The translations under genes were made by a program, and so were the position numbers. From positions 1 through 50,683 of the forward strand of contig JAJFIX010000035.1 of assembly GCA_021774575.1 (NCBI GenBank): DNA of 50,683 bases, given 5' to 3'. The DNA comes from Alphaproteobacteria bacterium. Lineage in GTDB: Bacteria > Pseudomonadota > Alphaproteobacteria > UBA6615. Below the pieces are notes generated by a model. That model had not been told where the DNA came from, made no database searches, and was given only the letters and a program-made list of their open reading frames with translations. Positions 1-5,835 of the stretch are shown in pieces. How positions within the stretch are numbered: the stretch's first letter is position 1; every line of letters starts with the position of its first letter.

Positions 1-1383
1 CCCGACACGCGGAACCCAACCCACATCACCATCCAACGGCCCGGCGAGGATCCGGTGACCATCCCGATGCCAAGCAACAGTGAGGTCATGCGCATGCTGG
101 GTCTTGATGGCGCGGCGCTGGCCGAGGCTGGGGGCGGTGCCGTCGCTGGGCCCCAGGACCGCCTGATCCTGCTAGATCGGCGGCCGGAGGGGGTGGGGGA
201 AGAGTTGGTAACGCCGCCGGTGGCTGTGCCGGACTCAGTTCCGGAGGCGGGGACTGGCTCTGATCCCGACACGATTCTCAGTCCAGGTTTTGACCCTGGC
301 ACTGGACGAGATTTCACCCTCAACCCGGATCTTAATCCAGACCCTGATCGTGACACAATTCTTAGTCCGAACCCGGATAACGACCCCAGCTCCGATCCGG
401 GCACTGACCCAGACCCTGCTCTCCAGCCAACGCCTGACTCTGATCCGAACTTGGGACCAACTGATACGGGGGATCCAAGTGGATCGGAATTGACGGAAAA
501 CGAACGGGAAAATATTACCGAGAACCAGTCTGAGTTGGAGGTGCTGCGTCGCTTTAATGACGGCCGCAACGAGGCGAGGGTTACGGAGCTGACTTTCCTG
601 GGGGCGACTAATTTTCCAAAATTGCGACCGGATGAACTCGAGCGGCTTGCTACTATTCTTGGCCTGGGATTCGGTGCCCTAACGACCGCACAACGAACCC
701 CCACTGTATTGGCTGCTCTGTCATCGAGGCAAATAATTTCCTCTGCTATAGCAAGGGTGGGTGCTGCCGCGCTCGGGGGGCCTGTCGGGATTGCCCTTGG
801 GGTTGCTGCATTAGGTCTCGGCGTTGCGGCTTTCTTTACGCGTCGCAACGCAGGTCGCCGGAGAGAAGAGTTGGCCAACCTTGAGCACGCTTACGAGATG
901 TGGCAAGCACAAAACGATGGGAGTTTGCCAGACGGTTTTGAAATAGAGGGCCCCTTTCAAACCTTTCTCGACGGACTGTCACCGGCCGGCCAGCGGGACT
1001 ATTTCAACACCTTGATTGACGCCGGTATTATCGATCGTGATGCCCGTCTCGATCCAGGACAGGACTTGCGACCGGGCGAGGCGTTCGAGGATATGAACGA
1101 ACTGGTCATCGATTATGCGGGAAGTTTCGAAAGTGTAACGGCTCAGATCTTAAGCCAAACCATGTTTGAGCAAGTTCGATCCGAAGGCCAGTTGGGCCTT
1201 TTTCGGGGGATTCAACAGGAGCTTGAAAATTTCCGGGAGTCGATCCGCAATAGCCCGATGCTTGAGGATAAGTTTGGCGAGACCATCGATGGTAGAATAG
1301 AGCGGTTGGCTGTGGAAATTGAAAGACTTGAGATCAGGCTAGAGGTAGTTGAGGAAATTGAACGGCGTCAGAGCAGGTTATAA
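1..1383 (+). CDS. modular Asp-Pro-rich protein with hydrophobic segment, 5'-partial
   Basis: The reading frame is open from the first base of the window, so the N-terminus lies upstream; an in-frame ATG at 55 is probably not the true start. The product is not recognised. Visible parts in order: a short conserved stretch (SNSEVMRMLGLD, about 70-110) that reappears in the broken copy at 2.7 kb; a low-complexity region rich in Asp-Pro with a repeated DTILSP motif (about 256-483); a Gly/Ala/Val-rich hydrophobic stretch of about 35 residues (about 733-840) followed by basic residues; and a charged helical C-terminus that looks like a coiled coil (about 1222-1380). The hydrophobic segment suggests membrane insertion. 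It could be a surface or secreted effector or a phage-type structural protein. The convergent membrane protein gene next to it resembles colicin/immunity layouts, but that is inference only. Confidence 0.7.
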   Translation, partial: PDTRNPTHITIQRPGEDPVTIPMPSNSEVMRMLGLDGAALAEAGGGAVAGPQDRLILLDRRPEGVGEELVTPPVAVPDSVPEAGTGSDPDTILSPGFDPGTGRDFTLNPDLNPDPDRDTILSPNPDNDPSSDPGTDPDPALQPTPDSDPNLGPTDTGDPSGSELTENERENITENQSELEVLRRFNDGRNEARVTELTFLGATNFPKLRPDELERLATILGLGFGALTTAQRTPTVLAALSSRQIISSAIARVGAAALGGPVGIALGVAALGLGVAAFFTRRNAGRRREELANLEHAYEMWQAQNDGSLPDGFEIEGPFQTFLDGLSPAGQRDYFNTLIDAGIIDRDARLDPGQDLRPGEAFEDMNELVIDYAGSFESVTAQILSQTMFEQVRSEGQLGLFRGIQQELENFRESIRNSPMLEDKFGETIDGRIERLAVEIERLEIRLEVVEEIERRQSRL

Positions 1384-1469
1384 ATGGGCGCTACACAGTA
1401 AGGATATAGGTTCTTTCCCTCCTGTAGCAGTGGAACATTGCTGGAGCATTGCGCCGGATTGCCAGCCTT

Positions 1470-1958
1470 TTATGGCGGCATTCCGGCGTTATTTTTTTTG
1501 GATTTCGCCAATTTTAAGGAGGCTAATTCACAGTAGATCAAAGAAATGCCAATACCGACAAAAAAAGAAATATATATATAGCCAGATACTGACTGATCAA
1601 CAGATATTATCTCCGCAAAGGTGCCATAGATCTCATCAGTTGGGTCGCGCATCCACAAAAAGTCTAAAAGAAGATTACCGAGAAAATAATTGAGGGCCAC
1701 GCCGATAAAATCGGTCTTCCGGCCAATTCCCAAAATCGCTAACCTGACTGTGACGGCGGAGATTAGGAGCCGGGCTGTCCAATAGAAAACATCAACTTGA
1801 TATGTCTTCGTAGATAGATTCGAGACCAAAAACAAACCATCGGTCAGTAGTTTAAAGCTAAGGAGTAAAATGGCGGTGATTAAGGCCACCTTCATCAATT
1901 TCGGCCAATTCGAAAAACTTGGCCAGACCTGTTCGGGAGTTTTTTCAGTACGAAACAT
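1470..1958 (-). CDS. small integral membrane protein (about 162 aa), unknown function
   Basis: The open frame extends upstream to 2318, but its first 120 residues are antisense to the GC-rich frame at 2.1-2.7 kb and look like shadow sequence. I place the start at the ATG at 1958, directly before MFRTEKTPEQVW. From there the protein has about four hydrophobic segments (starting near KVALITAILLLSF, then FYWTARLLISAV, the LNYFLGNLLLDFLW stretch, and GYIYISFFVGIGISLIY) and a basic C-terminus. The DNA is clearly more AT-rich than its neighbours, which suggests a different origin. It is convergent with the hydrophobic-domain protein ending at 1383. No family is recognised. An immunity-type protein is one possibility. 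No strong ribosome binding site is visible, so the start is uncertain. Confidence 0.5.
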   Translation of the reverse strand: MFRTEKTPEQVWPSFSNWPKLMKVALITAILLLSFKLLTDGLFLVSNLSTKTYQVDVFYWTARLLISAVTVRLAILGIGRKTDFIGVALNYFLGNLLLDFLWMRDPTDEIYGTFAEIISVDQSVSGYIYISFFVGIGISLIYCELASLKLAKSKKNNAGMPP

Positions 1959-2025
1959 TCGGGTTTGACCATCCCATTGAAACGGATGTGGAGCAAGAGC
2001 CAAAGAAGGTATCTTCAGTATATAG

Positions 2026-2827
2026 TTGTATGATCTTGTTTCCGGCAAGAGAAATATCCTACCCACGCCGAATATCAAACTGACATCGCTCGCACCCCCA
2101 GAGCCCACCCCGGCATCAGCGTCGGCAACCCCGCCGCGCCCTCCGACCGAACGGGTCAAAAAAATGCGGGCGCTAAATAAGCAGCAGCTCCAGACCCTGC
2201 GGGCCGGCCTCGAACCCGACGTCGAAAACTTGATCATGCAAACTGTCCTGCCCGCCAAGCGGGCGGCAATTGAGGCCAGCACCGACGGCCCTAACCGCCC
2301 CGGCTTCACCGACGTCAACGACCCCTACACCCATTGCCTGCGCGAGATCGAGCGGCGCATCGACGGCACCAGTTTTGCCAATGGGGTCGACCGCGACGAT
2401 CTCACCTGCCGGGCGATCACCCAAGTCGCCTCCGAGACCGAGACGATCCGCGCCACCACCAATCCGACCGAGCGCGAGGCCATGCAGCACGCCTTGCCTC
2501 AGACGGTCATGGAGGGCTTTGTGCGCAATAAGTTCCCCGAACTGCGCCACATGGAAACCCTGCCCGGTGTGGTCATGGACCCGGCGGGCCGTCCTTTTGC
2601 GCTGGACCCAGAGATGCACGTTCGGGTTGACGTCGCCGCCGACGAGGAGGCTGGCCAAACCTCGTCAATCATCGGCGCATTTCGCAGCCGCAACCGAACT
2701 CACATCGTCAACCAATGCCCCGGCGAGGCCGGGTCTCCGCCCGACGTCAAGCAACAGCGAGGTCATGCGGATGCTCGGTCTCGATGACGCTTCACTGGCC
2801 AAGGGCGGGGGAGTGACCGAATTCTAG
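2026..2827 (+). pseudogene. frameshifted, 5'-truncated relative of the gene at the window start
   Basis: One frame is open from 2026 to 2787 with protein-like composition from about 2085 on, including LRAGLEPDVENLI and MQHALPQTVMEGF. Near its end it reads RNRTHIVNQCPGE, matching RNPTHITIQRPGE at the start of the window. A shift of frame between about 2727 and 2745 is then needed to continue into SNSEVMRMLGLDDASLAKGG, which matches SNSEVMRMLGLDGAALAEAGG at about 70-135. The frame-corrected copy stops at 2827, shortly after the shared motif, so it lacks the long C-terminal region of the first gene. Base composition changes sharply near 2085, suggesting a 5' truncation there. It could also be an intact gene with one sequencing error, but no good start is seen: the frame opens with TTG just after a stop codon. 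Confidence 0.6.
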
Positions 2828-2867: not shown

Positions 2868-5462
2868 TCACTCGTCGAGGAAGAAGCGTTGTCTTTGGCC
2901 TGGGGTGAAATCGCGCACGTTTCGCCGGATCTGTTCACCGGCGGAAATGGCGGTTTCGAGGTCGCCGAACACCGGGAAAATGCGGGCGGTGCCGTCGTTG
3001 GCGGCGGTGACGATGCGGGTGCCGCTGGGGTCGAAGGTGACATGGCCGACCGGTGCGGTGTGGCCGGTGAGGATGGAGAGTTGGGCGCCGGTCTGGGCCA
3101 GCCAAATGCGCGCCGTGCCGTCTTCCGATACCGTCGCTGCATAGCGGCCGTTGGGGCTGAAGGCAGCATGCCAAACTTCGCCGGCATGGCCGGTCATTAC
3201 CGCCAGCCGGTTACCCGAAATCGCATCCCATATTGCCGCAGTTCCGTCGTTTGACGCGGTGATGACGCGGCTGCCGCTCGGGTCGAAGGCAATGTGACTG
3301 AGACCCTTGGTGTGGCCAGACAGGACCGCCATCGCAGAGCCGTCGGCACCGCGCCATATGCGCCCTGTGCCGTCATTCGACGAGGTCGCAATCAGGCCAC
3401 CATCGGGGCTAATATCGATATGGCTGACATAGTCCGTGTGGCCCGACAAAACCGCAACCTGATGCCCCAAGGTGGTGTCCCACATGCGGGCTGTATTGTC
3501 CTGGGATGCGGTCAATAGCAGGGCGCCGTTCGGACTAAAGATGACATCTAGGACAGGGGCTTGATGGCCTTCATAGAGAAAAGCAAGATTGCCGCTATTG
3601 GGGTCCCACAACGCGGCCTTGCCATCGGATGAACCGCTGGCGAGCCGTTGTCCGCGGATATCGAATGCGACGGCGTTGATGCCGCCCTCGTGGCCCTGCA
3701 TGACAAAAATTTCACGCCCATCAAGGCCATTCCAGATACGCACGGTGCCGTCCTCGGACCCGGTGACGATGCGTCGTCCCTCGGGATCGAACTCGGCGTC
3801 CCAGACCGTGCCCTCGTGCCCGGTCAGGAGCGCCCCGGGACGGCCGTCGGCGGCGGTCCATAGGCTCGACGAACCATCGTAAGACGTGGTGAGAACCTGA
3901 TCCCCGGCGGGGTTGAAAAATACGTCCCGCACCGCGTCAGTGTGGCCGCGTAGCACGGCGCTCGCTTCACCGGCCGTGGCTTTCCAGATGCGCGCGGTGT
4001 TGTCGAAGGATGTGGTTATTATACGGCTGCCATCGGCGCTAAATGTTGCGCTGGCAAGTCCGGCTTCGTGGCCCCGCAGGGTGGCGATTTCGTCACCGGT
4101 TTCGGCGTCCCAAATTTTAGCCGTCCCATCGCGCGATGCGGTCAGGGCGGCCCGGCCGTCGGCGGAAAAAGCGGCGCTGGTGATGCCCTGCATATGACCG
4201 CCAAGGACATTGATCGTGCCGCCATTGGCGGCGTCCCACATGCGTGCCGTACCGTCGTCGGAGCCGGTCAGAACGATTGTTGTCGTTGGGCTGAAGGCGA
4301 CGTGCCAGATATCGTCACTATGGCCGTCTAGCACCCCGATCTCTGCGCCATCCTGGGCGCTCCAGATACGCGCCGTATCGTCGGCGGATCCGGTGACGAC
4401 GAAATCATTGTCGGGACTAAAGGCGGCCGCAAGAACCGGCCCTCGATGGCCGCGCAGAATGCCGACCGGCTCCCCGGTCAATCCATCCCAGATCCGGGCT
4501 GTGCCGTCCCCGGACGCGGTGACGATGCGCGATCCGTCGGCGCTGAAAGCGGCATCCCAGACCTGTCCGTCATGGCCGCGTAAAACCTCCATCGTTTGCC
4601 CGTTGGTGGCATTCCATAATATTGCCACGCCATCGGCGCCAGCGGTGACGATGCGGCTGCCGTCGGGGCTGAAGGCGGCTTGGTGAATGGCGTTTCTGTG
4701 GCCGCTCAAGACGCGAATTTGGCGGCCCGATGCGGCGTCCCAGAGGCGCGCCGAGGTGTCGTCGGAGACGGTCACAAAACGACTGCCGACGGGGCTGAAA
4801 AGCGCCTGCGTAACCGGTGCTTCATGGGTGTCTATGGTCCTAACCATTTGGCCGGTCACCGAATCCCAGATGCGCACAGTTGTGTCGTCGGATGCGGTGA
4901 CGACAAATGCGCCGGTCTCGGAAAAAGAGCCAGACCGCACTGTTGCCTCATGCCTTCGCAAGACGAGCTGTTCCCGGCGGAGATGAAGAGCTTGATATAG
5001 AGCGTTTTGAGCCTGGTCGATTGGCGGCGCGCCGACGCGTCCGGACAGGGCTTCGAGTGCCAGCAGGGCGCCGGTGACCGAATCGCCGTTATGGGTGAGC
5101 GTCAGTGATTGCTCTGCAAGGAAACTGGCCTTGTCTTCTGGCGACTGCAAATCGGGGCGCAATATATCCGGTTGGGCAATTGGCGCTGGGTTGGGGCCGC
5201 CAAATTGGACCGGATCGGCGGCAAAGCCCGGTTCGCCGGGCATTGGTAAATTGGGGTCTTCTTCGGCGCCGAAAAAGGGCAGGCGGTCGACAAGTGATTT
5301 CGCACCGGAGACGGCACGGCTGGCCAGAGACGGGTTGCTCGGGTCCTGCTGCGCGCATCCCGACACGGAAATCGCACAGGCGCATAGTAGAACGACACCC
5401 AAATGCCGACCGAATGGTCGTCTGTTTCGGGCCCTGTAATTTCGTAAAATATTCCGCGGCAC
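2868..5462 (-). CDS. WD40-repeat lipoprotein with 16 repeats
   Basis: About sixteen WD40 repeats of 42 residues run nearly to the C-terminus, each ending with a variant of GH and containing a D-x-T-A-R-I-W type strand; this is enough for two seven- or eight-bladed propellers. Such propellers are protein-protein interaction scaffolds. The N-terminus has a basic stretch, a hydrophobic core (GVVLLCACAISVSG) and a lipobox Cys followed by Ala, so a lipoprotein, probably outer-membrane, is predicted. The GTG at 5462 gives a signal peptide of about 35 residues. A TTG at 5543, preceded by AAGGG, would give a longer 62-residue leader, so the start is open. The C-terminal tail FTPGQRQRFFLDE resembles tails seen on other bacterial WD40 proteins. 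Partner and role are unknown. It is a lone gene, convergent with the broken gene ending at 2827. Confidence 0.85.
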   Translation of the reverse strand: MPRNILRNYRARNRRPFGRHLGVVLLCACAISVSGCAQQDPSNPSLASRAVSGAKSLVDRLPFFGAEEDPNLPMPGEPGFAADPVQFGGPNPAPIAQPDILRPDLQSPEDKASFLAEQSLTLTHNGDSVTGALLALEALSGRVGAPPIDQAQNALYQALHLRREQLVLRRHEATVRSGSFSETGAFVVTASDDTTVRIWDSVTGQMVRTIDTHEAPVTQALFSPVGSRFVTVSDDTSARLWDAASGRQIRVLSGHRNAIHQAAFSPDGSRIVTAGADGVAILWNATNGQTMEVLRGHDGQVWDAAFSADGSRIVTASGDGTARIWDGLTGEPVGILRGHRGPVLAAAFSPDNDFVVTGSADDTARIWSAQDGAEIGVLDGHSDDIWHVAFSPTTTIVLTGSDDGTARMWDAANGGTINVLGGHMQGITSAAFSADGRAALTASRDGTAKIWDAETGDEIATLRGHEAGLASATFSADGSRIITTSFDNTARIWKATAGEASAVLRGHTDAVRDVFFNPAGDQVLTTSYDGSSSLWTAADGRPGALLTGHEGTVWDAEFDPEGRRIVTGSEDGTVRIWNGLDGREIFVMQGHEGGINAVAFDIRGQRLASGSSDGKAALWDPNSGNLAFLYEGHQAPVLDVIFSPNGALLLTASQDNTARMWDTTLGHQVAVLSGHTDYVSHIDISPDGGLIATSSNDGTGRIWRGADGSAMAVLSGHTKGLSHIAFDPSGSRVITASNDGTAAIWDAISGNRLAVMTGHAGEVWHAAFSPNGRYAATVSEDGTARIWLAQTGAQLSILTGHTAPVGHVTFDPSGTRIVTAANDGTARIFPVFGDLETAISAGEQIRRNVRDFTPGQRQRFFLDE

Positions 5463-5835
5463 CGCCGAAGCCAGTTCCGTCCCACATTGCCATGTTTCAC
5501 AATGAACGCGTTGCCGCCCATTGTTGAGTCGCCAATTCGCCAAAACGTTACCCTTGTTGAGCTCGCCAGTCTTCCAGCTACATTGCTAAGTTAATTCGGC
5601 ACGAAATTATTCTATGCCAACTTGTCGCGCCGGAGCCAGTCAGCATTGCATGTTGAGGCCGTTAAGGTACTGTCCCTGGGACTCTCTGTAAAGTCGGTGA
5701 GCGCTCACGGTTGGGGCTGGAGTAATAACCGTGCGATAGTCGAACCATTCTGTTGACCCATCGGTCCGATCACCGTAAGAGGAGGCGCCCCGGCAAGGGG
5801 CCGAATGATGAACTAAATTTAGGATAGATAGACCA
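5463..5835. other. intergenic region between divergent genes
   Basis: This 373-bp gap lies between the WD40 lipoprotein and the AhpD-like gene and should hold both promoters. It contains the AAGGG that could serve a TTG start at 5543 for the lipoprotein. I see no convincing ORF, RNA gene or strong hairpin. Confidence 0.4.

Follow-up and report, generated by a model that had tools for sequence, protein, structure and literature searches.

A probable polymorphic toxin locus with a convergent membrane-protein gene in an alphaproteobacterial genome

Described toxin systems and the layout of the locus

Pore-forming colicins carry a hydrophobic segment in their C-terminal domain and are countered by a membrane immunity protein. 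The locus described here, at the start of a 50,683-nucleotide stretch of alphaproteobacterial DNA (positions 1-50,683 of contig JAJFIX010000035.1, here called the window or C29), has a similar build and probably holds the C-terminus of a toxin, a protecting membrane protein and a dead copy of the toxin's shared front part. The window belongs to a draft genome of 3.50 Mb in 46 contigs (assembly 96.9% complete), of which C4, C5, C8, C13, C15, C16, C17, C29, C36, C42 and C43 are mentioned below. In ionophoric colicins, according to PMC9517006, the immunity gene lies on the opposite strand and has a promoter of its own, and cbi and cmi are opposite-strand colicin immunity genes as well (PMC8469651, in its section on these genes). 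The membrane gene of the window resembles them in position, strand and hydrophobicity. Unlike pore-forming colicins, the window protein has no Pfam colicin match and no recognised receptor or translocation domain, and it belongs to a modular family within one genome in which lipase and other C-termini also occur.

The wider likeness is to polymorphic toxin systems such as Rhs and contact-dependent inhibition (CDI). Their conserved front, exchanged C-termini, adjacent candidate immunity genes, orphan pieces and tandem immunity paralogues, as outlined in PMC3482391, have counterparts in this genome. In contrast to these systems, neither of the two front parts found here (backbones A and B) matches a known trafficking module. 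Moreover, the toxin-then-immunity order was predominant in the count by Zhang et al. (2012, PMC3482391), which was limited to same-strand pairs, whereas the candidate immunity genes are convergent at the window, the first C5 toxin, C15, C16 and C36.

Glycine-zipper toxins of the type VII secretion system (EsxX, TelE and TspA) offer a third comparison. As presented in PMC12744356, EsxX depolarises membranes and is countered from outside by the polytopic membrane proteins ExiCD, and TspA also has a membrane immunity protein, TsaI; the zipper and the membrane partner are the shared traits. According to the same account, EsxX and TelE are, unlike the window family, LXG proteins of Gram-positives. 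A soluble pair additionally confers immunity to EsxX, and TelE is countered by TipE, which belongs to this soluble kind. The CDI ionophore toxins treated in PMC11630599 are similar in having polymorphic C-terminal domains that dissipate the membrane potential and a putative glycine zipper. Pfam detected neither the LXG domain nor the CdiA N-terminal domains in backbone A or the 761-amino-acid (aa) backbone-B protein of C42, the 5' end of the window gene lying off the contig. The Cdz bacteriocin of Caulobacter also combines glycine zippers with a small membrane immunity protein, but its toxins, in the description of PMC5380434, are 84-86 aa long, in contrast to the large modular proteins here, and use type I secretion for export.

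The features of the locus are as follows.

1-1383, + strand: 3' part of a modular (polymorphic) toxin gene, 460 residues visible; the reading frame is open at the contig start and its 5' part lies off the contig
10-134, + strand: linker/junction segment, end of the shared backbone, with SNSEVMRMLGLD at 73-108; 77.6% identical over 125 bp to 2689-2811
181-456, + strand: Asp-Pro-rich linker, residues 61-152, in which 36 of 92 residues are Asp or Pro
454-1380, + strand: putative toxin domain acting on membranes (residues 152-460), with a low-confidence prediction of helical structure; probable distant homologue of C-termini on C5 and C15
733-840, + strand: hydrophobic segment with the glycine zipper GGPVGIALG (775-801)
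1451-1500, + strand: hairpin with a T-rich tail behind it (RNA fold), which may terminate the toxin gene and which overlaps the final codons of the convergent gene
1470-1958, - strand: putative immunity gene for a 162-aa protein with four hydrophobic segments (from hydrophobicity, position and a relative on C17)
1959-2034, - strand: upstream region of the putative immunity gene, within the stretch conserved on C17 (DNA alignment); a scan found no sigma-70-like site
2056-2827, + strand: orphan, broken copy of backbone A that lacks about residues 1-38, has a frameshift between 2706 and 2750 and has no C-terminal domain

The sequence-only reading had described a modular first gene with an Asp-Pro-rich region and a hydrophobic segment, cut by the window edge, then an AT-rich multi-helix membrane gene on the opposite strand and a GC-rich fragment with the first gene's junction motif. 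All these elements were confirmed. Within 1-1383, the junction segment comes first, then the Asp-Pro-rich linker, and last a region of some 309 residues that includes the hydrophobic part, in which 19-residue hydrophobic segments begin at residues 245 and 262; the edge that cuts the gene is the start of contig C29. The GC content is 0.568 in 1-1383, 0.417 in 1470-1958 and 0.640 in 2053-2827. The downstream fragment proved larger than described, being a backbone copy, and the alignment proposed for it matched 2689-2811 with 10-134 at an expectation value (E) of 6e-21; the region of SNSEVMRMLGLD is present twice, at 73-108 and 2750-2785. The same reading recognised no known toxin domain, which was borne out: the C-terminal domain has no Pfam family up to E 1 and no sequence match in PDB, and the two catalytic motifs sought, HExxH and GxSxG, are absent from it. 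The layout had been said to fit both colicins and polymorphic toxins. The polymorphic toxin architecture and the opposite-strand membrane gene stood, while membership of the pore-forming colicins was rejected at the sequence level by the same Pfam and PDB searches, the likeness being one of layout and supposed action only.

The RNA fold of 1440-1505 has an energy of -30.3 kcal/mol (z -4.2). A promoter and terminator scan of 1300-2900 found nothing, and the hairpin at 1451-1500 was missed by the simple terminator scan.

Two backbones and their exchanged C-terminal domains

The genome holds about a dozen related pieces built on backbones A and B. Copies of backbone A lie on C13, C43, C16, C36, C17 and in the window. 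Across 670 bp, the orphan copy and the end of C13 share 81% identity; C13 ends in an open frame of 287 residues, of which 39-255 correspond to 2056-2706 (81%). By bridging the C13 backbone and the start of the first gene, it indicates the missing 5' part of that gene, the two contigs being left unjoined; the end of C13 and the start of the window have 11 bases in common in the same frame, with a mismatch at the last base of C13.

Different C-termini follow backbone A. On C16, beyond an in-frame TAG, it is followed by a lipase-like domain containing GHSLG, for which PF01764 was found at E 0.0045, short of the family cut-off, and PDB gave weak matches only (best E 0.43, a type VI secretion system (T6SS) lipase effector). 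On C17, across frameshifts, it leads to a 403-aa frame without lipase similarity (L013:4429-5640) and without a PDB match, and a 120-aa gene lies 332 bases beyond on the same strand. The third is the window domain, joined to backbone A via the orphan bridge. An assignment of the 403-aa frame as a ParB-like toxin, suggested only by a resemblance of its C-terminal SLDHRRLYA stretch (SLDHRRLYAYR), was dropped.

Convergent to the C16 lipase-like toxin are five tandem genes of 304-305 aa (L011:3204-8038), whose products begin with a hydrophobic, signal-peptide-like stretch. The ratio of nonsynonymous to synonymous substitution rates (dN/dS) was 0.22-0.36 in all 15 pairs of the six copies of this family (five on C16 and one on C36), and the 304-aa protein had weak PDB matches only (best E 0.92). 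A dN/dS value for the lipase against a C36 piece was discarded as invalid, because an in-frame stop in that piece had let the codon register drift. The array, whose neighbouring toxin copy contains an in-frame TAG, is a candidate for homogeneous polyimmunity. C36 repeats the order of the window, with lipase-cassette remnants, a single convergent member of the 304-aa family and a backbone without its N-terminus.

Backbone B was found on C4, C5 (two copies), C42, C15 and C8 (loci L066, L073, L074, L075 and L076). Its C-termini are a lipase on C4, where PF01764 passes the cut-off, an HExxH-bearing domain (HEAFH) on the second C5 copy, an unassigned domain on C42 and a helical type on the first C5 copy and C15, the last two being 42% identical to each other. 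The lipase domain stands on both backbones, the C16 and C4 versions sharing 39% identity across 352 aa (E 2e-54 among the 13 proteins compared), and the helical domain is probably common to both as well, judging from the comparisons given below. A relation between the backbones themselves was dropped (hhalign probability 0.4), as was a phage origin of backbone B, which had been suggested by a likeness between its first residues and phage virion proteins but for which searches gave no match.

The sequence-only reading would have been contradicted by a known structural family in the upstream part. None was recognised: backbone A had no match in Pfam, only E 0.14 in NCBIfam (0.11 for the C17 copy), none in PADLOC and PHROGs at E 0.1 and, as a profile, none in PDB at E 1. 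For backbone B, PDB matches were weak (best E 0.7), and six proteins from its loci had weak NCBIfam matches only. Neither backbone matched phages at E up to 1. Backbone A was found in its own genome only, both among 191 genomes and as a profile in 385 genomes of the class, and so was backbone B among 289 genomes; absence here means absence from the sampled genomes. Scans of GTDB contigs and searches of plasmids with backbone A and the window toxin domain gave no relative, nor did searches of phages and viral contigs with backbone A; the GTDB and viral scans used short peptide patterns, reach mostly close relatives and may omit records of the genome itself.

With the window toxin domain, 11 others of the 385 class genomes gave weak matches (E 5e-4 to 0.009). 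The five of these that were scanned with Pfam were a Clp-like AAA ATPase, an ABC-2 membrane protein, a NusA-like protein and two without a family. The membrane protein weakly matched four others of the 191 genomes (E 1.8e-4 to 0.009), and two of the five weak loci, when scanned with Pfam, were an MMPL-type protein and a permease. The lipase domain was found in two others of the 385 genomes (E 3e-4 and 6e-4). The weak outside matches of the toxin domain and the membrane protein, the two family-less loci apart, are taken as chance or general membrane similarity. In the samples searched, there thus appears to be no convincing relative of either backbone or the window toxin domain outside this genome. 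The statement concerns sequence libraries; a word-based literature search cannot find a family by its sequence, and the backbones are not claimed to be unpublished.

Some neighbouring features were seen along the way. Seven contig ends fall inside backbone sequences (the ends of C13, C43, C16 and C15 and the starts of C29, C5 and C8), so the backbone repeats are the probable cause of the breaks in the assembly, and the gaps may hide further toxin genes. At L066:5378-6637 (C4), the 419-aa open-ended C-terminal part of another protein is followed by a same-strand 131-aa gene, a possible toxin-immunity pair. Near the lipase-cassette remnants of C36, two divergent large proteins share a repetitive sequence that reads as beta-helix-like (L012:3697-7882). 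Directly after the toxin locus, the window carries an intact 891-aa protein with what read as WD40-like repeats (2868-5543, - strand).

The putative toxin domain and its convergent membrane gene

The C5 and C15 helical domains were reached via backbone B, not picked by score. In a single BLASTP comparison, the window domain matched the C5 protein at E 8e-7, and hhalign aligned it with the C5 plus C15 profile at probability 68 and E 4.9e-5. Its alignment scores were 113 with C5 and 99 with C15. For these, 1000 local shuffles peaked at 85 and 88, none reaching the observed score; after masking of the hydrophobic part, the score was reached by 0 of 1000 shuffles for C5 and 2 of 1000 for C15. In the same comparison, the 36 other open reading frames of the window scored at most 52 and 57, and the 11 weak-match loci from the class genomes scored only 34-53 against the C5 and C15 domains. 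The profile of these two domains had weak PDB matches only, the best being Target of Myb 1 (E 0.012) over the C-terminal helical stretch. The window domain is therefore probably a distant homologue of the C5 and C15 C-terminal domains, near the limit of detection.

The convergent membrane gene has a truncated relative at C17:349-501, with 82% aa identity over 51 codons and a dN/dS of 0.115, a comparison of coding constraint that covers the first third of the gene only. Most of the differences are at third codon positions (9, 5 and 16 at positions 1, 2 and 3), and because of this bias and the low dN/dS, the membrane gene 1470-1958 is, on sequence grounds, a real gene. The likeness in DNA runs upstream to 2034 (window 1812-2034 against C17 355-578, 78.6%). 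The C17 relative adjoins the apparent end of an insertion-sequence integrase, a label that is our own. Against PDB, the window membrane protein gave weak matches only (best E 0.4). Sub-threshold Pfam and NCBIfam matches of the small membrane proteins (best EpsG, E 8e-4, and VirB4_plasma, E 0.003) were dropped.

The first C5 toxin has convergent membrane-protein genes of 109 and 101 aa and the C15 toxin one of 103 aa, and at both loci the nearest of them lies 1-2 bp from the toxin stop. Homologues lacking the membrane neighbour, which would have spoken against the sequence-only reading, were thus not what was found; all three loci with helical, membrane-toxin-like domains (window, first C5 copy and C15) have a convergent membrane gene. 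Overall, ten loci are visible, with partners assigned by position only: convergent at the window, the first C5 copy, C15, C16 and C36, and on the same strand on C4 (two), at the second C5 copy, on C42 and on C17. Candidate immunity genes by position accordingly also stand beside the backbone-B toxins of C4, C5, C42 and C15, and the lipase partner is convergent on C16 and C36 but on the same strand on C4. Orphan pieces, which the earlier reading expected of polymorphic toxins, follow downstream at several loci: in the window (2056-2827), on C36 and C17, on C5 (a backbone B without its start) and on C15 (a remnant of a toxin domain).

Proposed action, alternatives and significance

The reading that we consider likely is that of a polymorphic toxin locus in which an exchangeable toxin depolarises the membrane of a competitor and the convergent 162-aa membrane protein protects the producer. 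The modular gene structure, the exchanged C-termini, the convergent membrane genes at three loci, the orphan fragments and the constraint on the first third of the membrane gene are observed; from them, we infer that the toxin is exported, kills by depolarisation, targets bacteria and is countered by the membrane protein. The replaceable C-terminal toxin domain would be attached to a conserved N-terminal backbone that lies off the contig, and the orphan backbone copy would be what an earlier exchange of cassettes, or a duplication, left behind. The toxin domain (about residues 152-460) would depolarise the inner membrane of a competing bacterium by inserting its hydrophobic segment with the glycine zipper into it, and the 162-aa protein in the producer's inner membrane would block the insertion or assembly of the toxin. 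A membrane-depolarising toxin with membrane immunity is favoured because of the precedent of EsxX with ExiCD and the opposite-strand immunity of ionophoric colicins. A strict glycine zipper is present in the hydrophobic part of the window domain (GGPVGIALG) and in that of C5 (GAVIGGPVG), and the broader pattern was found within a hydrophobic stretch in one of the 36 other open reading frames of the window.

Several observations weigh against this reading. The hydrophobic stretch of C15 has no glycine zipper, and that of the window is no rarer than its composition predicts (P 0.11-0.12); since composition alone gives a strict zipper in about one case of nine, the motif is suggestive only. Searches of genomes with the window protein listed neither C5 nor C15 at E 0.001 or 0.01. 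Moreover, the weak matches from the 385 genomes score 77-106 against the window domain, overlapping the C5 and C15 scores, and the top one, at 106, is the Clp-like AAA ATPase, so scores of this size arise by chance in searches of many proteins. Homology of the window membrane protein to those of C5 and C15 was dropped (E 7 or worse). The proposed structure prediction of the C-terminal part gave helices at low confidence, and the AlphaFold2 models were poor in two jobs, with predicted local distance difference test (pLDDT) scores of 43.9 for the window toxin domain and 46.0, and unusable. The convergent layout is not limited to the membrane-toxin class, since the lipase genes of C16 and C36 have it as well. 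Seven of the eight backbone A copies are broken or truncated, the exception on C13 running off its contig, so damage further upstream in the window gene is possible as well. Finally, the delivery markers VipB (PF05943, the single marker used for the T6SS apparatus), the phage sheath family and VirB4 had no match in the assembly, types I, II, III, V and others not being searched; in 14 control genomes, these families were found in 1, 3 and 1, respectively.

A polymorphic toxin that is no ionophore is the alternative that survives best, and we regard it as rather unlikely. In that case, the hydrophobic helices would aid translocation or anchoring and the helical C-terminus would hit another envelope target, with the membrane protein still acting as immunity. 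About 170 residues follow the hydrophobic segment, CDI toxins have separate entry domains that use membrane proteins (as treated in PMC11630599), and the hydrophobic region weakly matches LeoBC (PADLOC, E 0.0019) and a phage tape-measure family (PHROG, E 0.0032). On the other side, the window domain lacks HExxH, GxSxG and any Pfam match, and at three such domains the partner is a membrane protein, as with membrane-acting toxins.

It is improbable that the repeated proteins are a decaying surface or phage-derived structural family with unrelated neighbours as convergent genes. The broken or truncated state of most backbone A copies, the tape-measure match and the lack of recognised toxin or secretion families apart from the lipase would fit such a family. 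However, lipase-like and HEAFH-bearing C-termini are exchanged on the backbones, convergent membrane genes occur at three loci, intact tandem paralogues stand beside the lipase copy and neither backbone matches phages. That the first gene is a toxin with an accidental neighbour on the opposite strand in place of its immunity gene is very improbable, since, although the window membrane protein is unlike those of C5 and C15 in sequence, position, orientation and kind of protein are alike at all three such toxins, and a backbone fragment, oriented likewise, comes after the C17 relative too.

Beyond the depolarising toxin and its membrane immunity protein, a broader proposal is put forward only tentatively: two unrelated, undescribed backbones may share a pool of toxin domains, among them a new family of ionophores whose membrane immunity is encoded on the opposite strand, and delivery may be by neither T6SS, contractile injection nor a VirB-type type IV secretion system.

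Overall, the genome looks like the carrier of a polymorphic toxin arsenal on two unmatched backbones, with a membrane-toxin class that has a colicin-like convergent immunity layout. Polymorphic toxins are usually recognised by their delivery modules; here, the front parts match no library searched, yet the exchanged domains are of the usual sort. The set offers candidate toxin-immunity pairs and a contrast within one genome, between a convergent membrane gene at all three helical loci and a same-strand partner at five of the ten loci.

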